The notes: generated by a model from the sequence alone, not told the origin. A stretch of DNA of 44,853 bases from Desulfohalobiaceae bacterium (GCA_021737615.1 JAIPDR010000005.1:1-44853), one strand, 5' to 3'. Positions 28,937-39,279 are shown, numbered from the stretch's first letter. Numbers and translations: made by a program.

Positions 28937-30988
28937 ATGAAACGCGATCAAGCAAACATCACCCCGGGCTGTCTGGTGGAATACCTCCACGACAATCAGA
29001 CTCTGCTCGGATTCGTTCAGGAAGAACAGGGCCGTCAGTTCAGGGTCCTGAACCACAACAAAAGACAGGTCAAGCTGACTCTGGCCAGAGTCCTGCCCTG
29101 GGTGGGCCCTAAACTGTCAATGCAGATATCCAGGTCCGAAATACTGGAGGCCCTCAATGACCACAACCAGAAACGCCAGAGGGTTCAGGCGGAGATCGAT
29201 CCGGTGGAGCTCTGGGAATTGACCAGGGATGAAGTCTTGGAGGGCACGGCAGACTGGTTTGCCGGTCTCCTCTGGAACTATCCGGATGAGGACCAGATTG
29301 CGGCCGTGGGCCGGACCATGCTCGAAAACAAGGCCTTTTTCAAATTTCAGCCGCCCGGCTTCAAGATCTTCGATCCCGAGACGGTCCAGGCCAAGCTGGC
29401 CGAGCAGGAATCCCTGAGAAAAAAGAGGCTGCTTCTGGCCCATGGACAGTCTTTTTTCCAGGCCCTGCTGAAAAAGGACTGCAAAGACGATTCCGCAGCC
29501 TTGCCTGAACTGCCGCCGGAAGTGGCTGCAGAGCTCAGCAGGGTCCTTTTGTCCGGGATCAACGACCCCGAGAATCAGGAGTTCTTATCCCTCTGGAAAG
29601 TCCTGCGCAAAGGGCTGCCCGATGATCCCCATCTGCCCCTGCTCCTGGCCCGGGCCTGGAATATCGTTCCCAGCCACTACAATTACCTCCTTGACCAGGC
29701 CGGATATGACTGGGGAGACATCTGGGCGGAAGAATTCGAAGAGGAGATCGAGCAGCTGATTCGAACAGTAAAGGCCTCACCGCAAGAAGATAAAGAACTG
29801 GAGCTTATCAGCATAGATTCGGAAAGCACCAGGGATATCGACGATGCCTTCAGCGTTGAGCCCTCTCCCCGGGGCTTTGTCCTGAAGCTCGGTCTGGCCT
29901 GTCCGGTCATCGGCTGGGACTTCGGATCAAGACTCGACCAGAGGGTCTTCCAGAGGATGAGCAGTCTCTATCTCCCCGAAGGCTCGAGCCACATGCTTCC
30001 GGAAAGGCTGGGCACCGGCTTCTTCAGCCTGCATTCCGGGAACTCCAGGCCGATCCTTCTCATTACGGCCGAGCTGGATCAGGAGGGCAAACTCCTGGAC
30101 ATGGAGCTCAGGACGACCCGGACGACAGTTGCCGCCAACAAGACCTACGACCAGGTGGAACAAGAGCTGGACCAGGAGGACAATCCTGTTCTGAACCAGG
30201 CCCTGGAGCTGGCCGCCAAGCTCAGGCAGCAGCGCATCGAAAACGGAGCGGTCATCATTGAGCAGGAAGATCCGGACATCGTACTCAAAGCCGGGGATGA
30301 TGACTTCGAGGTCTTTCTCCAATCCCCTGAGAGCCACCCCGGTGCCCAGCTCATTGTAAGCGAGTTTATGATCCTGGCTAACCAGGCCGTGGCCGAGTGG
30401 GCAAACACTAAAGACCTGCCCCTGGTCTACCGGACCCAGGACATCACTTTGCCCGGGGACAGGGCCGGCATCTGGCGGGATCCCGTGGATATCTATCACC
30501 TGATCAGGGAGTTGAGCAGCGCAAAAATCGAGACCATACCCAAGCCCCACTCCAGTCTGGGGGTCAGCGCCTATGCCCCTGTCACCTCTCCCCTGCGCCG
30601 TTACGTTGATTTCATGAATATGGCCCAGATCCATTCTTTTTTAAGCGGCAACAAGCTCCTGTGGAGCAAAGAGGAACTCCAGGCCAAACTGCCCTACCTG
30701 ACCGCCAGGATGCAGGCCGTGGCCAACATCCAGCGCAGCCGGACAAGATACTGGAAGTTGCTTTATTTTCAAAGACATTGTAAAGTCCAGCACTGGTCGG
30801 GGGTCGTCGTGGGGATCAACGACAAACGGATTACCCTGTCCCTGCCCGGCGCCAAGATTCTGATTCAGGGTCATAGAAACATCTTCAATGAAAAAACCGG
30901 CCTCGGTGACCGCTACCGGCTCAAACTGGGGAAGGTAAGCCCCTTACACGATGAAATAAGAATAATGGATGCCTGGGAGGAATCATGA
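28937..30988 (+). CDS. RNB-domain (RNase II family) ribonuclease
   Basis: A 3'-5' exoribonuclease-type protein. The RNB catalytic signature SESTRDIDDAF is at about residue 296, with the metal-binding aspartates in place. SPLRRYVDF (about 552) is the second family hallmark. The N-terminal ~250 residues are divergent and contain a small beta-rich region, and the C-terminus ends in an S1-like fold. The 683 aa and this layout resemble the shorter RNase II-like proteins of cyanobacteria and Desulfobacterota rather than E. coli RNase R. The last codons overlap the plsY start by four bases, so the two are translationally coupled. Confidence 0.9.
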   Translation: MKRDQANITPGCLVEYLHDNQTLLGFVQEEQGRQFRVLNHNKRQVKLTLARVLPWVGPKLSMQISRSEILEALNDHNQKRQRVQAEIDPVELWELTRDEVLEGTADWFAGLLWNYPDEDQIAAVGRTMLENKAFFKFQPPGFKIFDPETVQAKLAEQESLRKKRLLLAHGQSFFQALLKKDCKDDSAALPELPPEVAAELSRVLLSGINDPENQEFLSLWKVLRKGLPDDPHLPLLLARAWNIVPSHYNYLLDQAGYDWGDIWAEEFEEEIEQLIRTVKASPQEDKELELISIDSESTRDIDDAFSVEPSPRGFVLKLGLACPVIGWDFGSRLDQRVFQRMSSLYLPEGSSHMLPERLGTGFFSLHSGNSRPILLITAELDQEGKLLDMELRTTRTTVAANKTYDQVEQELDQEDNPVLNQALELAAKLRQQRIENGAVIIEQEDPDIVLKAGDDDFEVFLQSPESHPGAQLIVSEFMILANQAVAEWANTKDLPLVYRTQDITLPGDRAGIWRDPVDIYHLIRELSSAKIETIPKPHSSLGVSAYAPVTSPLRRYVDFMNMAQIHSFLSGNKLLWSKEELQAKLPYLTARMQAVANIQRSRTRYWKLLYFQRHCKVQHWSGVVVGINDKRITLSLPGAKILIQGHRNIFNEKTGLGDRYRLKLGKVSPLHDEIRIMDAWEES

Positions 30989-31590
30989 GCACTCTTCTTG
31001 TCTGTCTCTTCTGGGTGGCTTTGACCTATGTCATCGGCTCGCTTCCCTTCGGTCTCATCGTTTCCAAGATATCGACAGGCCGGGATCCCAGATCTTCGGG
31101 CAGCCGGAGCACGGGAGCCACCAATATCGCCAGGACTTGCGGCCTGCGGTACGGCATACTGACTTTTCTCCTGGACATGGCCAAGGGCTTCATCCCCCTG
31201 ATCCTGGCCATGACCTTGAGCGACTCCCTTTTTTTTCTCAGCCTGACCGGTCTGGCCGCAATCGTCGGCCATATGTATTCGGTTTTTCTCAACGGCAGAG
31301 GCGGCAAGGGAGTGGCCACCACCATAGGGGTCTTTGCCGCCCTCGCCCCGAGCCCTCTGTTCTGGAGCCTGGTCATCTGTCTGTTTGTCATCTGGTTCAC
31401 CGGCTATGTCTCGGCAGGTTCCCTGGCCCTGAGCCTGGCCCTGCCCGTCCTGCTCATCCTGAGCTTCAATCTGTCTTTTTTTGTCCTGAGCCTGGCGGTC
31501 ATGTTTCTGGTCTTTTTCAAACACCGGGACAACATCATCCGCCTGGCCAGGGGCCGGGAAAACTCCTGGAGACTCAAACATGCCTCCTGA
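30985..31590 (+). CDS. plsY: acyl-phosphate:glycerol-3-phosphate acyltransferase
   Basis: PlsY makes lysophosphatidic acid from acyl-phosphate and glycerol-3-phosphate at the inner membrane. The 201-aa protein has several membrane helices and the three family motifs. They are GSLPFG with the following R-x4-GSRSTGATNIAR, the central DMAKGFIP, and GHMYSVFLNGRGGKGVAT. In motif 1 the usual GSGNxGATN reads GSRSTGATN, a change at two normally conserved positions. GGAGG five bases before the ATG supports the start. A 13-bp hairpin brackets the stop codon. Confidence 0.93.
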   Translation: MSTLLVCLFWVALTYVIGSLPFGLIVSKISTGRDPRSSGSRSTGATNIARTCGLRYGILTFLLDMAKGFIPLILAMTLSDSLFFLSLTGLAAIVGHMYSVFLNGRGGKGVATTIGVFAALAPSPLFWSLVICLFVIWFTGYVSAGSLALSLALPVLLILSFNLSFFVLSLAVMFLVFFKHRDNIIRLARGRENSWRLKHAS

Positions 31591-31610
31591 AAGACACGAG
31601 GCATGTTTGA
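31574..31610 (+). terminator. hairpin bracketing the plsY stop codon
   Basis: TCAAACATGCCTC (31574-31586) and GAGGCATGTTTGA (31598-31610) pair perfectly over 13 bp. The plsY TGA (31588-31590) lies in the 11-nt loop. A ribosome terminating there would cover the 5' arm, so folding could depend on translation. Confidence 0.6.
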
Positions 31611-31651: not shown

Positions 31652-32431
31652 ATGCTTACCATTTCTGCTGAAACAACGGTTAGCCTTTCACCAGGGCAGA
31701 CCAGCCTCCTCGGTCCCGGTCCTGCAGGCAACCATGCAGGCGGACTCGTCTTTTGGGAAAATAGAGTTGACCTTCCCGTGGGTGCCACCTTGGGTCCTGA
31801 AGAGGATGTCGGCCGGTTTCAGGTCGTGAACCGCCTCAGGCTGCCCGGTCCTGATCATGCCCGGAGAGGGTTTGTGGTCCGGATACTGACGCATTGCTCC
31901 TTTGGCCCGGAACCGGTTTCGCTGCAGGCCTGGTGCAAGAACTTCAGCCTGGCCTGGATCACTCTGAGCGACAAAGGGGCCAGGGGGGAGAGAACGGACG
32001 AAAGCGGTCCTGTCATTCCAGAACTTATCCAATCGGTACTGCCCCTGGATCTGGAGCGGGGCTTCATCCTGCCGGACGACAAGGCCGAGCTGAAAGGACT
32101 TCTCGTGCACCTGGCCCTGGAAGAGAAATACGACCTGATCGTGACCAGCGGGGGAACCGGAGCCGCGCCCAGGGACATCACCCCGGAAGTCACCGCTTCG
32201 ATACTGGAAAAGGACCTGCCCGGTTTCGAGCAGGCCATGGTCCGCTCCTCCCTGGCCAAGACACCCCACGCAATGATCTCCCGGGCCAGAGCCGGCCTGC
32301 TGGGCACCTGCCTGATCATCAACCTCCCGGGCAGTCCCAAAGGAGTCCGTGAAAACCTTTCGGCACTGCTCCCGGCCCTCAGGCACACTCTGGACAAGAT
32401 AAAAGGCGACCCGAGCGATTGCGCAGTATAA
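31652..32431 (+). CDS. MogA/MoaB-type molybdopterin adenylyltransferase with extra N-terminal domain
   Basis: Residues from about 97 onward form a complete MogA/MoaB domain. AWITLSDKGARGERTDESGP, VTSGGTGAAPRDITPEVT (TSGGTG at about 166-171) and INLPGSPKGVREN are clear. These proteins adenylylate molybdopterin before molybdenum or tungsten insertion. The first ~95 residues are an additional domain (with GPAGNHAGGLVFWENRVDLPVGATLG) that I cannot assign. It ends with LTHCSFG. It might be a MOSC-like or target-binding module. The start lacks a good ribosome site. The gene lies 61 bp after plsY and 17 bp before the EndoQ fusion gene. Confidence 0.88.
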   Translation: MLTISAETTVSLSPGQTSLLGPGPAGNHAGGLVFWENRVDLPVGATLGPEEDVGRFQVVNRLRLPGPDHARRGFVVRILTHCSFGPEPVSLQAWCKNFSLAWITLSDKGARGERTDESGPVIPELIQSVLPLDLERGFILPDDKAELKGLLVHLALEEKYDLIVTSGGTGAAPRDITPEVTASILEKDLPGFEQAMVRSSLAKTPHAMISRARAGLLGTCLIINLPGSPKGVRENLSALLPALRHTLDKIKGDPSDCAV

Positions 32432-32448: not shown

Positions 32449-35400
32449 ATGGATCTTTTTTATTCCGACCTGCACATCCATTCCCGGTATTCCCGGGCGA
32501 CCAGCAAGAGCCTGACCCTGCGGAACCTGGCTGCCTGGGGGGCTTTAAAGGGTCTGCATGTCCTTGGCACCGGAGATTTCACCCATCCCGGCTGGCTGCA
32601 GGAGATGGACGAGAATCTGATCCAGGAGGAAAGCGGTCTCTTAAAGCTCAGGGACACCGAGGGCCTGGACCGGGAGATCCCCTGGATGCGGGGTGAGACT
32701 ATCCCCGGGAAGACCAGGTTCATGCTCTGCACTGAAATCAGCTCCATCTACAAGAGCCGGGGCGCGGTCAGAAAAATCCACAACCTGGTCTTCATGCCCA
32801 GCCTGGAAAAAGCCAAACACTTCAGCCGGCGTCTGGCTCAGGTCGGCAATCTCGAGTCCGACGGCAGACCCATCCTCGGCCTCGATGCCAGAGATCTCCT
32901 GGAAATGGTCCTGGAGAGCGATCCCCTGGCCTTTCTGGTCCCGGCCCATATCTGGACGCCGTGGTTTTCGCTTTTCGGTTCCAAATCCGGGTTTGACAGA
33001 ATCGAGGACTGTTTTCGCGATCTGAGCAAACATATCTTCGCCCTGGAAACAGGATTGTCCTCAGACCCGGAAATGAACTGGCTCTGGAGCCGGCTGGACC
33101 GCTACACCCTGATTTCCAATTCCGACGCTCACTCCGGAGAGAAACTGGCCCGGGAAGCCAGCATCTTTTCCGGAGAACCCGCCTACGAAACGGTTCTGCG
33201 GGCTATGAAGAATCAAGGACTGGGCAGCAAGTTCCTGGGCACGATCGAATTTTTTCCTGAAGAGGGCAAATATCATCTGGACGGCCACCGCAAATGCGGT
33301 GTGGTCGTGGATCCCAAAGAGGCAATGCAGCCGGGCCGTCTCTGCCCGCAGTGCAGCAAGCCCCTGACCCAGGGCGTCTTGAACAGGATCGTGACCCTGG
33401 CCGACCGGAGCCAGCCCCGGAGACCGGCTCAAAGTCCGGATTTCATCTCTCTGATCCCCCTGCAGGAGGTTTTGTCCGAAATTTTAGGGGTCGGGCCAAA
33501 GACCAAGACCGTAACCCACACCTATAAACAGCTTCTGCTTCGATTCGGATCCGAGCTTCAGATCCTGCAAAACGTCCCCCTCGACGACCTGAAATCCTTC
33601 GATCCGCTACTGGCCGAGGGGGTTGCCAGGATGCGCCGTAAAGACGTTTACAAAGAACCGGGCTTCGACGGACAGTTCGGTCGGATCACGGTCTTCACCC
33701 CCAGGGAGAGGCAGAAATTCAACCGGGGCAAGAAAAAGACAGCCGGCCCGAGGAAACAGACCCAAACCCCTCCATCGGTCCGGCAGGGGGAACTCCCGTC
33801 TGCAGCCCCTTTTTCAGACTCTGATCAGCCTGACCCGGATCCTGGTTTGAACCCTGAGCAGCAAACCGCCGTGGAAGCAGGCAGAGACCCCCTGCTGGTC
33901 CTGGCCGGACCCGGGACGGGGAAGACCAGGACATTGCTCGGGAGGGTGGAAAGGCTCATCAATCGGGGCTGCAATCCCAGGCAGATCCTGATCGTGACCT
34001 TCACCCGGGCCGCGGCCAAGGAGATAAAAGAACGGCTGGTCGAAGTCTTCGGCCCCGAACAGGGACTTCCGCTCGTGGACACCCTGCACGCCCTGGCCTT
34101 TGAAACCTGGCTGCAGACCGCCGGGCAGAGCCCGACCCTGTTGACGGAAGAAGAGGCGGAACAGATCTTTGCCCGGGCCAACAACCACCTTTCTGCCAAA
34201 GAGGCCAAACAGGCCAAAGCGCAGCTCAACCTGGCCAGGGAGAGGCGTCATATCCCGGATGATCTGGCTGCTTCTGCCCGGAACTTTTCCGAGCATAAGG
34301 ACTCCTGGAATCTGGTCGATTACTCGGATCTTCTGGAGGGCTGGCTGGAGCTGATAGAAAGCGGGGCCTACAGCAACCCCTTCAATCATGTTCTGGTGGA
34401 TGAAGTCCAGGACCTCTCACCTCTGCAGATCGAGCTGGTCACAAAACTGCTGCCGGAAAAAGGGACCGGTTTTTTCGCCATCGGCGACCCCAGGCAGTCA
34501 ATCTACTCCTTCCGGGGTGCTGTGGGTGACTGCTCCGAAACCTTCCGGAAAACCTGGCCCGGCCTCCGGGTCGTCGGCCTGAAGGAGAACTACCGCTCCC
34601 GGCAAAACCTCCTGGATTTTTCCGGCTCTCTTTTTCCGGACAGCCGGAATCTCCTGGCCAGGAACCCGGGCAAAGGCCAGCTTGTCTTCTATCATGCCCG
34701 GAATTTCAGGCAGGAGGCCCTGTGGATCGGCAGACAGATCAAAGGGCTCCTGGGCAGCACCTCCCATTCGGAAACGGACCGGGGTCATGAAGGCGGCCTC
34801 GCTCCCGGAGACATCGGCATCCTGTTCAGATTCAAGGCCCTCATCCCGCCCCTGGAACACACCCTGAAAAGTATGGGGCTGCCCTGTACCGTACCCGAGA
34901 CCGTTCCCTTCTGGGAGGACCCGCGCATCAAACACATACTCCAGGGAGCAGCCGAGTTTCTGGGCATCTCGTTCTCGGACCGGGAAGGCAATGACTCCCT
35001 GAACTGCCCCGATCATATCCTGGCCGAAGGGCCGAACGGTGTGGCCGCCTATTTTGAAGACGTCTCCCCCTTTGACCGTATTTTCTGGAAAAGCCAGCCC
35101 TTTCAGGATTTGAAAAAGGCCTATCAGCAACACGGGGGATGGGCCAATTTGATCAGCTGGATCAGGCTGGAGAGCGATCTGGCTCTGGTCAGGCAAAAGG
35201 CCCAGAAGATCCGGCTTTTGACCCTGCACGCCGCCAAGGGACTCGAATTTGAGGCCGTGTTCATCCCGGCCCTGGAACAGGGTATTCTACCCTTTGCCGG
35301 GAAGGATTTTCTGGCCGGCCGTCCCGGAACCGACGGCGATCACCCCCTGGTGGCGGAAGAAAAACGGTTGTTCTACGTCGGGCTGACCAGGGCCAGATCC

Positions 35401-35571
35401 CGTCTTTTCTTGAGCCGGGCCGACCATAGAAAGATATACAACCGCAATTACTATCTCCAGGCCAGTCCTTTTCTCGACCTCTTGCCCTTTGCAGAAGTCC
35501 GCCGGTTGCAAAGCGTCGCCCACAGCATCAAAAAAGAGAAACAACTCTCGCTGTTCAAATCCGATTCATAA
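32449..35571 (+). CDS. endonuclease Q - UvrD-like helicase fusion
   Basis: The N-terminal ~425 residues are a full endonuclease Q (PHP phosphoesterase with zinc ribbon). Visible parts are DLHIHSRYSRATS (H9, H11), VLGTGDFTHPGWL, NSDAHS, the zinc cysteines CGVV...LCPQC (from about 283) and a helix-hairpin-helix ILGVGPKT (about 341). EndoQ nicks 5' of uracil, hypoxanthine and other deaminated or abasic sites. After a basic, Pro-rich linker (about 425-465) comes an SF1A helicase. It has Walker A GPGTGKT (about 487), DEVQDL (about 650), GDPRQSIYSFRGA, TLHAAKGLEFEAVF (about 923) and LFYVGLTRARSRLFL (about 973). The protein has 1040 aa in one uninterrupted frame. In characterised systems EndoQ is a separate protein. 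Neighbours are a DHH phosphoesterase and PolA. Confidence 0.93.
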   Translation: MDLFYSDLHIHSRYSRATSKSLTLRNLAAWGALKGLHVLGTGDFTHPGWLQEMDENLIQEESGLLKLRDTEGLDREIPWMRGETIPGKTRFMLCTEISSIYKSRGAVRKIHNLVFMPSLEKAKHFSRRLAQVGNLESDGRPILGLDARDLLEMVLESDPLAFLVPAHIWTPWFSLFGSKSGFDRIEDCFRDLSKHIFALETGLSSDPEMNWLWSRLDRYTLISNSDAHSGEKLAREASIFSGEPAYETVLRAMKNQGLGSKFLGTIEFFPEEGKYHLDGHRKCGVVVDPKEAMQPGRLCPQCSKPLTQGVLNRIVTLADRSQPRRPAQSPDFISLIPLQEVLSEILGVGPKTKTVTHTYKQLLLRFGSELQILQNVPLDDLKSFDPLLAEGVARMRRKDVYKEPGFDGQFGRITVFTPRERQKFNRGKKKTAGPRKQTQTPPSVRQGELPSAAPFSDSDQPDPDPGLNPEQQTAVEAGRDPLLVLAGPGTGKTRTLLGRVERLINRGCNPRQILIVTFTRAAAKEIKERLVEVFGPEQGLPLVDTLHALAFETWLQTAGQSPTLLTEEEAEQIFARANNHLSAKEAKQAKAQLNLARERRHIPDDLAASARNFSEHKDSWNLVDYSDLLEGWLELIESGAYSNPFNHVLVDEVQDLSPLQIELVTKLLPEKGTGFFAIGDPRQSIYSFRGAVGDCSETFRKTWPGLRVVGLKENYRSRQNLLDFSGSLFPDSRNLLARNPGKGQLVFYHARNFRQEALWIGRQIKGLLGSTSHSETDRGHEGGLAPGDIGILFRFKALIPPLEHTLKSMGLPCTVPETVPFWEDPRIKHILQGAAEFLGISFSDREGNDSLNCPDHILAEGPNGVAAYFEDVSPFDRIFWKSQPFQDLKKAYQQHGGWANLISWIRLESDLALVRQKAQKIRLLTLHAAKGLEFEAVFIPALEQGILPFAGKDFLAGRPGTDGDHPLVAEEKRLFYVGLTRARSRLFLSRADHRKIYNRNYYLQASPFLDLLPFAEVRRLQSVAHSIKKEKQLSLFKSDS

Positions 35572-35668: not shown

Positions 35669-36724
35669 ATGTACTATTTCCGAAAACTTGAAAATAAAAC
35701 AGTTCAGCTGATGAGCCTTTTCAACAAGAAAGAGAACTGGCTCATCCTCTTGACCGGTGACCCGGATGCCCTGGCCTCGGCTATGGCCTTGAAGCGGATC
35801 CTGGCCAGACGCGTCAACACAGTGGGCATCGCCATGGTCAACCGGATATCCAGACCGGACAATCTGGCTATGGTCCGCTATCTCAATATTCCGATCAAAC
35901 AGCTTACACCGCCTTTGGCCGCTCAATACGACAGATTCGCCCTGGTGGACTCCCAACCCCACCACAATCCGGCCTTCGCCAGGTTCGATTTCTCGATTAT
36001 TTTCGATCATCATCCACTCGATCCCAAGGAAACCGCGGCAGCCCCCTTTACCGAGATCCAACCGGCTTACGGAGCCAACAGCACACTTTTGACCGAATAC
36101 TTATACAACTTAAAGATCAGGCCGGGCAAACTCCTGTCGACCGCTCTCCTCTACGGGATCAAGACCGATACCCACAGTTTCGAACTCAACTTCCACGACG
36201 CAGACATCCGGGCCTTTCGCTATCTGAGTAAATACGCCGACCATACCCTGCTTCGGAAAATAGTGCGCAGTGAATTCAGGGTGGAGTGGCTCAGTTACTT
36301 TTCCTATGCCTTTCGAAAAATGCGCCTCATCGGAGACGGTCTGACCGTGTTCATGGGCCAGGTCGATTCCACCGATATCCTGGTCATCCTTGCCGATTTC
36401 TTCCTGCGTGTCCACGACGTCTCCTGGAACATCGTCAGCGGTATCTGGGATGACAAACTGGTCATCATTTTCAGGGGAGACGGCATCAAAGTGGACATCG
36501 GCAAGCTGGCCGGAACCCTCTTCGGCGACCTGGGTTCGGCCGGCGGGAAAAAGGCCATGGGCAGAGCGGAAATCCCCCTGAGCAATCTGCACGACGAACA
36601 CCCCCAGCAGATCATCTGGGAGCGACTGCAAAACAGCAAACTAGGCGCCAAAAACGGGGACAAACCCGCTGCGCAGGAAGAAGCCCCGGAAGAAGAATTC
36701 TCCGATACCGAAACCAAAGCCTGA
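35669..36724 (+). CDS. DHH family phosphoesterase (NrnA-like)
   Basis: DHH phosphoesterases hydrolyse short oligonucleotides, pAp, cyclic dinucleotides or single-stranded DNA (RecJ branch). Motif I is GDPDALASA (D31, D33), with D94 following. The namesake DHH is at 113-115, and GIKTDTHSF supplies the next metal ligand. The C-terminal DHHA1-type region includes GDGLTVFMGQVDSTD and a GGGK-like segment GSAGGKKAMGRAEI. An acidic tail ends the 351-aa protein. The exact substrate cannot be decided. Its stop and the polA start overlap by one base (TGATG), indicating coupled translation with PolA. GGAG lies close before the ATG. Confidence 0.9.
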   Translation: MYYFRKLENKTVQLMSLFNKKENWLILLTGDPDALASAMALKRILARRVNTVGIAMVNRISRPDNLAMVRYLNIPIKQLTPPLAAQYDRFALVDSQPHHNPAFARFDFSIIFDHHPLDPKETAAAPFTEIQPAYGANSTLLTEYLYNLKIRPGKLLSTALLYGIKTDTHSFELNFHDADIRAFRYLSKYADHTLLRKIVRSEFRVEWLSYFSYAFRKMRLIGDGLTVFMGQVDSTDILVILADFFLRVHDVSWNIVSGIWDDKLVIIFRGDGIKVDIGKLAGTLFGDLGSAGGKKAMGRAEIPLSNLHDEHPQQIIWERLQNSKLGAKNGDKPAAQEEAPEEEFSDTETKA

Positions 36725-39279
36725 TGTCTATCCAAGAACGCTTCAACTGGACCCGGGAACCCCTCTTCCTCATCGACGGGACTTCCTTTCTCTACCGGGC
36801 CTTCTACGCCTACCCGGACCTGACCAGATCCGACGGATTTCCGACCAATGCCATGTATATCATGTTCCGGATCCTGTTGAAGTTCATCAGGGAGGAACAG
36901 CCCCGCTACTGCTGCTTCTTCCTGGACGGGAAAGGACCGTCCTTCCGGGAGGAAATCATGGGTTCCTACAAGGCCCAGCGCTTGAAAATGCCGGAGTCGC
37001 TGAGCCGCCAGATCCCTCCTCTGCTCGAGGGAGTCAAGCGCCTGGGCCTGCCGCGGGCAGTAGGTCAGGATGGCGAGGCGGACGATTACATTGCCAGTTA
37101 CACCCAGAGCTTCAAATCAAAAAGACCGGTGGTCATCCTGGGCTCTGACAAAGACCTTTTGCAATGCCTGGATGAGGGGGTCGTCATCTGGGATCCCGGT
37201 ACCCGCCGGGAAAAAATCGTTACCCTGCCCGATTTTAAAAAAACCGAAGAGTTGAATCCAGATCAGTGGCCGGACTTTCAGGCCCTGACCGGAGACAAGA
37301 GCGACAACATCCCCGGCGTACCCGGCATCGGCCCCAAAACGGCCCGGAAACTCCTGCAGCGCTACCCTTCTCTCGAGGCACTGCGGGACAATTTCCATCG
37401 TTTGACCAGAAAGGAACAGGAAAAACTCCAGAACCACTTGCAGGATATCTTCGTCTACCGCAGACTGACCCGACTGAAAACCGAATTGACCGAATCGGTC
37501 TCTTTGGAAGATTTTGCCTGCCGCCAGCCCGTTTTTTCCGAATTATTCGATTTTTTTCAGGAATACGAGTTCAAGACCCTGATCAGGGAAATCGAACCCT
37601 TTGCAGAAGCGCCTGCTTTGGACAAACCGTCCCGGGCACCTGTCCCGGCCGGACCCGTCCCCCTGAGGAAAACCCGGGAACTGCCGGATCTGACCGGGCA
37701 GAGAGTCGGGCTCAGGCATGATGCAAAGGACAATCAGTGGTATCTCGGCTGTGTACAGGAAGAGATCCAAACCGATCTTTCAGGAGATCTCCTCCTGGAC
37801 AGTCTCCGCAACGCTTCCGAGATCTTTGTCCCTTCCTTCAAGGAACTGCTTTCGGCGGAGCCCGGCTGGGAAGACCTTCAGGACCGAATCTTCGACCTAA
37901 GCCTCATGGCCTATCTGATCAATCCCGAAGAACGGGACTACGGCTGGAAAAGGCTCCAGACGGTCTACCTGCAGCAGACCGGCGTACATCAGGACAACCA
38001 GGGGCTGGCCGTGCTGGAAATCGGTCTTTACCTGCAGAGCCAGATCCAACACGCCGGGTTATCCGACCTGCTCACAGCCATCGAGACCCCTCTGGTCCCG
38101 GTGCTGGTGAAGATGGAAAAAACAGGCCTGGGGATCGATTTGGACGCCTTTGCAGGGTTTCTCACGGAAGTGGAAAACAGGCTCCAGGAGCTGACCGAAT
38201 CCATATACAGGCAGGCCGGTCAGGAATTCAACCTCAGATCCCCCCAGCAGCTTGCGGAAGTCCTCTTTACCAGACTGGGACTCAGATCCAGGCGCAAGAC
38301 CCCGGGCGGGCTGCCCTCGACCGCAGTACCGGTCCTGGAGAGCCTCTGCAGCGATCATCCTGTTGTCGGGGACATTCTGGAATTCAGGTCTCTTGAAAAG
38401 CTCCGCTCCACCTACCTCGACCCTCTGCCCAGACAGATCGGGGGCGACGGGCGGCTGCACACCACCTTCAACAACCTGGGGACCGCCACCGGGAGGCTGT
38501 CCAGCAGCAGGCCCAACCTGCAGAACATCCCTATCCGGGGCGAATTCGGCTACAGGATGCGCTCCTGTTTTGTGGCCGGCCAGGGCTACGCCCTGGTGGC
38601 CGCGGATTACTCGCAGATCGAACTCAGGCTCCTGGCCCACATGTCCCGGGACGAGAACCTGCTTCTGGCCTTTTCCAGGTCCGAGGACATCCACGCCCGC
38701 ACCGCAGGGCTCATCTTTGACAAGGAGCCGCAGAACATCACCCCGGATGAGAGGCGCAAGGCCAAAACCATCAACTTCGGTCTGCTCTACGGCATGGGGC
38801 CTCTGCATCTGGGCCGGGAACTCGGTCTTTCCGTCAGGGAGGCCAAGAAATTCATCGAGATCTACTTCGAACGCCTGCACAAGGTCAGGGACTTTTACCG
38901 CCAGACCGAACACAAGGCCAGGGAACAGGGCTACGTCAGCACCCTGGCCGGCCGGAGGCGTGTCCTCAAGGACCTGAACTCCAGAAACGCAAACCTGGCC
39001 GCCCAAGCCAGGCGAATGGCCATCAATACCGTGGTCCAGGGCAGTGCGGCGGATATCATCAAGATGGCCATGAACCGGGTGGACCGGGATGCTGAACTCC
39101 GCAGCTCCGGGACCAGGCTCGTACTTCAGGTCCACGACGAGCTGCTGCTGGAGGCGCCGGCACAAAAGGCTGTGGCCGCCGGGCAAAGAATCTCGGCCAT
39201 CATGTCCTCGGTTACCGAACTGAGCGTGCCCCTGGACGTCGACTGGGGAACCGGTTCAAGCTGGGCTGAAGCGCATTGA
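36724..39279 (+). CDS. polA: DNA polymerase I
   Basis: PolA fills repair gaps and removes RNA primers. The N-terminal 5' nuclease (about 1-290) shows LIDGTSFLYRAFYA, GEADDYIAS, GSDKDLLQC and GDKSDNIPGVPGIGPKTA. The middle region sits where the 3'-5' exonuclease should be but has no D-x-E motif, so proofreading is probably absent. The family A polymerase domain has motif A DYSQIELR (about 628), motif B RRKAKTINFGLLYG (about 677) and motif C VHDE (about 803). The 851-aa length is slightly short. A perfect 15-bp hairpin begins right after the stop. Confidence 0.96.
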   Translation: MSIQERFNWTREPLFLIDGTSFLYRAFYAYPDLTRSDGFPTNAMYIMFRILLKFIREEQPRYCCFFLDGKGPSFREEIMGSYKAQRLKMPESLSRQIPPLLEGVKRLGLPRAVGQDGEADDYIASYTQSFKSKRPVVILGSDKDLLQCLDEGVVIWDPGTRREKIVTLPDFKKTEELNPDQWPDFQALTGDKSDNIPGVPGIGPKTARKLLQRYPSLEALRDNFHRLTRKEQEKLQNHLQDIFVYRRLTRLKTELTESVSLEDFACRQPVFSELFDFFQEYEFKTLIREIEPFAEAPALDKPSRAPVPAGPVPLRKTRELPDLTGQRVGLRHDAKDNQWYLGCVQEEIQTDLSGDLLLDSLRNASEIFVPSFKELLSAEPGWEDLQDRIFDLSLMAYLINPEERDYGWKRLQTVYLQQTGVHQDNQGLAVLEIGLYLQSQIQHAGLSDLLTAIETPLVPVLVKMEKTGLGIDLDAFAGFLTEVENRLQELTESIYRQAGQEFNLRSPQQLAEVLFTRLGLRSRRKTPGGLPSTAVPVLESLCSDHPVVGDILEFRSLEKLRSTYLDPLPRQIGGDGRLHTTFNNLGTATGRLSSSRPNLQNIPIRGEFGYRMRSCFVAGQGYALVAADYSQIELRLLAHMSRDENLLLAFSRSEDIHARTAGLIFDKEPQNITPDERRKAKTINFGLLYGMGPLHLGRELGLSVREAKKFIEIYFERLHKVRDFYRQTEHKAREQGYVSTLAGRRRVLKDLNSRNANLAAQARRMAINTVVQGSAADIIKMAMNRVDRDAELRSSGTRLVLQVHDELLLEAPAQKAVAAGQRISAIMSSVTELSVPLDVDWGTGSSWAEAH

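Follow-up and report, generated by a model that had tools for sequence, protein, structure and literature searches.

A bacterial endonuclease Q fused to a UvrD-type helicase, a candidate one-chain initiator of deaminated-base repair

Endonuclease Q (EndoQ) has been presented as a mainly archaeal enzyme with few bacterial representatives (PMC8438529, PMC4357722), and its discoverers proposed two routes for the steps after the nick, one through a polymerase and flap nuclease and the other through a helicase (PMC4357722). In Pfu EndoQ, residues E76, H84 and H139 are essential Zn ligands, and H139, G169 and S171 act as a steric filter against T and A (PMC8307549). Archaeal EndoQ binds PCNA via a C-terminal motif and is stimulated by PCNA (PMC4858679). 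The EndoQs known from Thermococcales, Methanosarcina and Bacillus pumilus (TIGR00375/COG1379) are free-standing proteins of about 400 aa.

Here, a 44,853-nucleotide stretch of DNA from a Desulfohalobiaceae MAG (the window) was analyzed that carries an EndoQ of the same fold, with the same PHP ligands and pocket and 31% identity to the Pfu enzyme, which differs from known EndoQs by an added helicase and by a Cys3His instead of a Cys4 Zn site. Its C-terminal clamp-type motif is comparable to the PCNA motif of archaeal EndoQ. All helicase motifs are shared with the SF1A helicases UvrD, PcrA and Rep; unlike ordinary UvrDs, the fusion has an N-terminal nuclease, a shortened 2B region (in the window protein) and a C-terminal clamp-type motif not seen in 14 ordinary UvrDs tested, and it forms a separate group in the helicase tree. 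Fusions of the AddA/RecB type likewise combine an SF1A helicase and a nuclease in one chain, but theirs is a C-terminal RecB-family nuclease associated with double-strand ends, whereas the nuclease described here is an N-terminal, predictedly lesion-specific PHP endonuclease.

An EndoQ half and a helicase half in one reading frame

The sequence-only reading of this DNA had proposed that a single 1040-aa frame encodes EndoQ and a UvrD-like helicase, which was confirmed by the frame itself, profile searches and a fold search (Table 1). Residues 6-415 matched Pfu EndoQ (5zb8, residues 5-382) end to end (E 8.4e-53; 31% identity), and the EndoQ half matched TIGR00375 with an E value of 1.8e-49. In the helicase half (aa 467-990), Pfam UvrD-helicase (E 1.2e-46) and UvrD_C (E 3.6e-33) were detected, with PcrA as the best NCBIfam match (E 7.5e-62). 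Both halves were well folded in an AlphaFold2 model built from 36 sequences (mean pLDDT 82, pTM 0.55) and were joined by a disordered linker with pLDDT below 50 at aa 429-463; because the pTM is low, the relative placement of the halves in this model is not reliable. Foldseek matched the N half to Pfu EndoQ (5zb8, TM 0.87-0.89, rmsd about 2.5 Å), and UvrD-, PcrA- and Rep-DNA complexes were the top matches of the C half (TM up to 0.70).

Table 1 Features of the fusion gene and its conserved neighbors in the window
Feature	Position	Strand	Basis
MoCF_biosynth (MoaB-like) protein, frequent upstream neighbor	31652..32431	+	PF00994
EndoQ-UvrD fusion gene, 1040 aa	32449..35571	+	One uninterrupted ATG frame
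EndoQ half (aa 1-415), consisting of a PHP nuclease core, a Zn-binding segment and a helical C-terminal part	32449..33693	+	Whole-length PfuEndoQ match, model TM 0.87-0.89
Zinc-binding segment, aa 280-302 (H280, C283, C299, C302)	33286..33354	+	Alignments; Pfu first position is Cys
Linker, aa 416-464, disordered, fast-evolving	33694..33840	+	AF2 pLDDT, dN/dS 0.46
SF1A UvrD-type helicase half, aa 465-1024, shortened 2B region	33841..35520	+	Profiles, fold search, motif spacing
Walker A / motif I AGPGTGKT, aa 486-493	33904..33927	+	Sequence, alignment
Walker B / motif II DEVQD, aa 651-655	34399..34413	+	Sequence, alignment
Putative beta-clamp-binding motif QLSLF, aa 1032-1036	35542..35556	+	Q1032 invariant, 36 aligned fusions
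DHH-family phosphoesterase, conserved downstream neighbor in the order	35669..36724	+	PF01368
DNA polymerase I (polA), conserved downstream neighbor in the order	36724..39279	+	NF004397 above cut-off

Individual residues were compared in an alignment of the window protein with 35 complete fusions that represent about ten phyla. The PHP metal ligands of the Pfu enzyme (H8/H10, E76, H84, H139 and D193) are met by H9/H11, E96, H111, H167 and D226 in the window protein; a lack of these ligands in the N-terminal part would have refuted the earlier reading. Across the 36 fusions H11, E96, H111, H167 and D226 are invariant and H9 is nearly so. Equally invariant is the base-discriminating pocket of H167, G202 and S204, the latter two aligning with Pfu G169 and S171. 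In the separate Zn-binding domain, four candidate ligands could be placed (H280-C283-C299-C302), giving the Cys3His arrangement.

The helicase half contains the Q motif LNPEQQ followed by AGPGTGKT, TFT, DEVQD, GDPRQSIYSFRG, ENYRS, LTLHAAKGLEF and VGLTRAR. Motifs I, II, III, IV, V and VI are intact, with key residues invariant in the 36 aligned fusions. The helicase had been described as complete, which holds for its motifs but not for its 2B region: although the core is UvrD/Rep-like, motifs IV and V of the window protein are only 213 aa apart, compared to 256-317 aa in ordinary UvrDs (fusions, 125-308 aa; median 271). In UvrD/Rep proteins, the 2B region regulates the motor.

Two same-genus relatives have the same fused frame, with EndoQ halves that are 92% and 81% identical to that of the window. 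Comparison to the same-genus relative G622 gave dN/dS values of 0.09 (EndoQ half), 0.14 (helicase half), 0.46 (linker) and 0.08 (final 16 residues), the last of these having few sites behind it. Both domains are under purifying selection and, like the tail, are kept, while the linker drifts. The window comes from a MAG of 280 contigs with 5% contamination, which could suggest a chance read-through or assembly artefact without function, yet the same fusion is present in same-genus relatives and in complete genomes or isolates (e.g., Desulfonema magnum, Saccharopolyspora hirsuta and Neglectibacter timonensis) and is under purifying selection, and we regard this explanation as already refuted.

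Distribution and origin of the fusion

A count of genomes with the fused form, suggested as a check by the sequence-only reading, revealed it to be widespread. This EndoQ type was found in 253 of 395 genomes drawn from the window's phylum; among the best 150 matches listed, 98 came from frames of 887 aa or longer and the other 52 from short frames, and the helicase was in frame in all 35 long frames examined. Using a GTDB genome scan and ORF analysis, fusions were identified in named genomes of about ten phyla, with records from Desulfobacterales/Deltaproteobacteria, Chloroflexi, KSB1, Gemmatimonadetes, Planctomycetota/Pirellulaceae, Fibrobacteres, Myxococcota and Latescibacterota, and further records from Actinomycetota (Saccharopolyspora hirsuta), Bacillota (Neglectibacter timonensis, Clostridia) and one Alphaproteobacteria MAG. 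As many of these records are MAGs, single phylum labels may be wrong. One fused gene (L080:10030-10035) has a single in-frame TAA at the expected glutamine codon of the helicase Q motif, after which the frame continues. A literature search found no description of an EndoQ-helicase fusion, which agrees with the initial statement that no characterized protein is known to have this architecture; subscription papers were thinly covered and an earlier mention is not excluded.

Within 200 Bacillota genomes, two kinds of EndoQ could be distinguished. The first is about 46-52% identical to the window protein and occupies frames of at least 980 aa (23 genomes); the second is about 30-36% identical and short except for one partial match, and it is presumably the kind to which the known Bacillus-type EndoQs belong. 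Both kinds are sometimes found in one genome (e.g., G585 and G552), and in G417, G537, G502, G453 and G492 the EndoQ half has an in-frame insertion of ~30-80 residues near query residues 70-89.

In an EndoQ tree rooted on the Pfu enzyme, with free-standing EndoQs as outgroups, all 35 fusions fell into one supported clade (98/93). Short forms were nested inside it, and it follows that the helicase has been lost repeatedly. Some EndoQs in the sister group of this clade are directly followed by a separate UvrD gene (abutting in L085; also L101 and L104), and the EndoQ-UvrD gene pair is still extant. A wider EndoQ tree (86 rows) gave the same picture and placed Omnitrophota gene pairs among the fusions, i.e., as later splits. 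In the helicase tree, ordinary UvrDs formed one group, the UvrDs of early gene pairs were positioned between these and the fusions, and the remainder consisted of fusions with nested splits. The 86-row tree and the helicase tree were produced by a quick search with aLRT supports, and their roots are inferred. The trees of both halves fit a history, read from sequence comparison, in which an EndoQ-UvrD gene pair would have given rise to one ancient fusion, followed by losses and splits.

Clamp motifs, gene neighborhood and glycosylase content in Desulfovibrionales

The C-terminus of the window protein, KEKQLSLFKSDS, includes the putative beta-clamp-binding motif QLSLF, for which DnaN binding is inferred from sequence. 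A Q..L[FL] pattern was found within the last 25 residues of 29/35 phylum fusions (shuffle mean 1.2), and the wider pattern Q..L[FLIM] in 49/52 complete named fusions and 10/12 gene-pair UvrDs, compared to 0/14 ordinary UvrDs. Early free-standing EndoQs often have the same type of terminal motif, and most fusions retain a second clamp-type motif where EndoQ formerly ended (about aa 408-432). Many relatives have a QxxLF motif in the linker, which the window protein does not, and in part of the Desulfovibrionales the terminal motif is degenerate (QLxLL and similar). Beta-clamp motifs had already been noted in bacterial EndoQs (Bacillus and Desulfovibrio homologs; PMC4858679), which ruled out that such a motif is wholly new; what is new, as far as found, is the fusion together with its double-motif layout.

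Across the Desulfovibrionales, the fusion gene is part of a recurrent block (EndoQ_UvrD - DHH phosphoesterase - polA - DUF1844 - argC). At the loci sampled in this order, which represent several families, the DHH gene was downstream in 13/13 cases and polA in 12/13; a MoaB-like gene was often upstream, with no clear functional link to the fusion. Two of the genera sampled (G040 and G076) lack the polA/DHH block, which is also absent outside the order. Its absence outside had suggested an incidental neighborhood, an interpretation overturned by wider sampling within the order that showed conservation. The linkage to Pol I fits a role in flap removal and fill-in. Further upstream in the window (30969-31610, + strand), a 213-aa protein without Pfam or NCBIfam match is encoded, which is conserved between RNase II-like and MoaB-like genes in L206 and L208.

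The EndoQ half was detected in 117/120 Desulfovibrionales genomes (100/101 good genomes), and in 108 of the 117 it was part of a single frame of at least 980 aa; it was missing in G653 and G634, which are both incomplete, and in G637 (94% complete). The order was assigned through one of its genomes, G608, which contains the plasmid of the cultured Desulfohalobium retbaense DSM 5692 (100% identity across the 12 kb compared) and also encodes a fusion. UDG (PF03167) was found in 29 of the 120 genomes (15 strong matches, 14 weak at 20-28 bits) and went undetected in 91, while the same search was positive in 13/14 reference genomes and 74/80 wider phylum genomes used as controls. EndoV was not detected in 117 of the 120 genomes of the order, including all 101 good genomes, and was found in three; in the phylum sample, it was present in 29/80 genomes. 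With UDG and EndoV mostly missing, the fusion is probably the main starter of deaminated-base repair in Desulfovibrionales. Outside the order, nearly all fused genomes also have UDG; because of this coexistence, UDG replacement is not a general role of the fusions and the idea of a general UDG substitute was rejected there. A partnership with EndoV (dual incision, the second pathway of PMC4357722) is unsupported given its detection in 3/120 genomes of the order and 29/80 of the phylum.

The window's own MAG has UDG and EndoV matches, and is therefore not itself an example of replacement. These matches are on contigs of ordinary, not foreign-looking composition, which provides no support for contamination. 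The same MAG contains two near-identical PcrA-type helicase genes on different contigs (L189, G000:C226; L190, G000:C138), one with an in-frame TGA, a possible strain mixture. Two disrupted loci were also observed. In G706 (L204:2035-10468), EndoQ is decayed and split by unrelated phosphate-transport-type genes, the helicase is lost and UDG is present, making this a reciprocal case; in the complete genome G683 (L205:1927-4409), an insertion element carrying an IS481-like integrase frame interrupts the EndoQ half and no UDG was detected, a natural knock-out.

Proposed mechanism and competing explanations

We propose, with a probability of roughly 0.6, that the fusion is a one-chain excision-repair initiator for deaminated bases that hands over to Pol I. 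Its activity is inferred, as none has been measured for any fused protein. Judging from fold and residues, the EndoQ half would flip out a uracil, hypoxanthine or abasic site and nick 5' of it, as extrapolated from characterized EndoQ relatives that act on dU, dI and AP. The nick would leave a 3'-OH, and the downstream strand would carry the lesion at its 5' end, which makes unwinding toward the lesion the useful direction. Motors of the UvrD family move 3' to 5'. The tethered motor is thus envisaged to load at the nick on the undamaged strand, travel 3' to 5' toward and beyond the lesion and displace the damaged strand as a 5' flap. Pol I, for which only the gene linkage is observed, could then extend the 3'-OH and trim the flap before ligase seals, and small products might be removed by the DHH phosphoesterase. 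The enzyme would be tethered to the DnaN clamp through QLSLF and, in many relatives, also through the second motif at the EndoQ end, similar to the archaeal PIP box and PCNA. The fusion would in this way physically supply the helicase of the post-nick route proposed by the discoverers of EndoQ.

The mechanism "nick, then unwind" is inferred but has the best support: in Desulfovibrionales, the fusion is conserved and almost always forms one frame, and the EndoQ-DHH-polA order is found across several families. Counted against it are the UDG and EndoV matches in the window's MAG, the absence of polA linkage in places and the partial degeneration of the clamp motif. Since the helicase was lost several times with EndoQ retained, it is dispensable in some lineages. 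The comparison to a UvrC plus UvrD step in one chain made by the sequence-only reading is a loose one. Incision, displacement by a helicase and fill-in by Pol I are common to both this proposal and UvrABC-UvrD nucleotide excision repair, and UvrC makes two incisions. In contrast, the fusion is inferred to make a single 5' nick using a damage-specific nuclease in one chain, without UvrA or UvrB, and to target small base lesions instead of bulky ones.

The order of events could be reversed, with a clamp- or fork-bound motor exposing single-stranded DNA that the EndoQ half scans for dU and dI and nicks, making the fusion a surveillance enzyme; in a variant, the motor would act at stalled replication or transcription complexes. 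This is compatible with the two clamp-type motifs of many fusions and with general family knowledge that relatives of UvrD/PcrA act at forks and together with RNA polymerase. EndoQ is also active on dU and dI in single-stranded DNA (PMC11354406). However, it cuts duplex DNA well, which makes prior unwinding unnecessary, and single-stranded AP sites poorly (PMC6202378, PMC11354406), and the adjacency of polA points to gap repair, so that a helicase-first order appears unlikely. We are more doubtful still of a change in the target lesion of the EndoQ half (to abasic sites, oxidized pyrimidines or other), which would leave uracil repair in the order to some unrelated enzyme, for example a dU endonuclease of the ExoIII type. 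PfuEndoQ does cut AP sites and some oxidized pyrimidines (PMC8307549), the Zn site is Cys3His and not Cys4, and UDG coexists with fusions outside the order; nevertheless, the positions that keep thymine and adenine out (Pfu H139, G169 and S171) are invariant.

A defensive function has been suggested for bacterial EndoQ (PMC8307549), and the helicase half is matched by PADLOC GajB models, raising the idea of a helicase-nuclease directed against uracil- or inosine-containing invader DNA or of a Gabija-like system. These models are generic UvrD matches, however, and the gene is near-universal in the order and tied to polA, argC and purH instead of defense genes. No GajA-type neighbor was present among the annotated flanking genes of this housekeeping locus, which is syntenic across the order, and this EndoQ type was not found in scans of 72,556 plasmids, 50,697 phage records and IMG/VR. 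An anti-phage or mobile-element role is therefore without support and highly improbable. Returning to the nick-then-unwind initiator, its broadest implication can be put forward only tentatively, at slightly less than even odds: that Desulfovibrionales largely replaced UDG and EndoV by one clamp-tethered nick-and-unwind protein working with its neighbor Pol I, and that the fusion arose once and was spread or inherited across many phyla, so that a glycosylase-free repair pathway so far regarded as chiefly archaeal would be common in bacteria.

Overall, a helicase-fused type of EndoQ occurs commonly in bacteria and is almost fixed in one order of sulfate reducers, most of which lack detectable UDG and EndoV. 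An enzyme that is clamp-linked and both nicks and unwinds would also be of use as a reagent to detect deaminated bases, and the fusion makes testable both the events that follow the EndoQ nick and the way in which uracil is removed in organisms without a uracil-DNA glycosylase.
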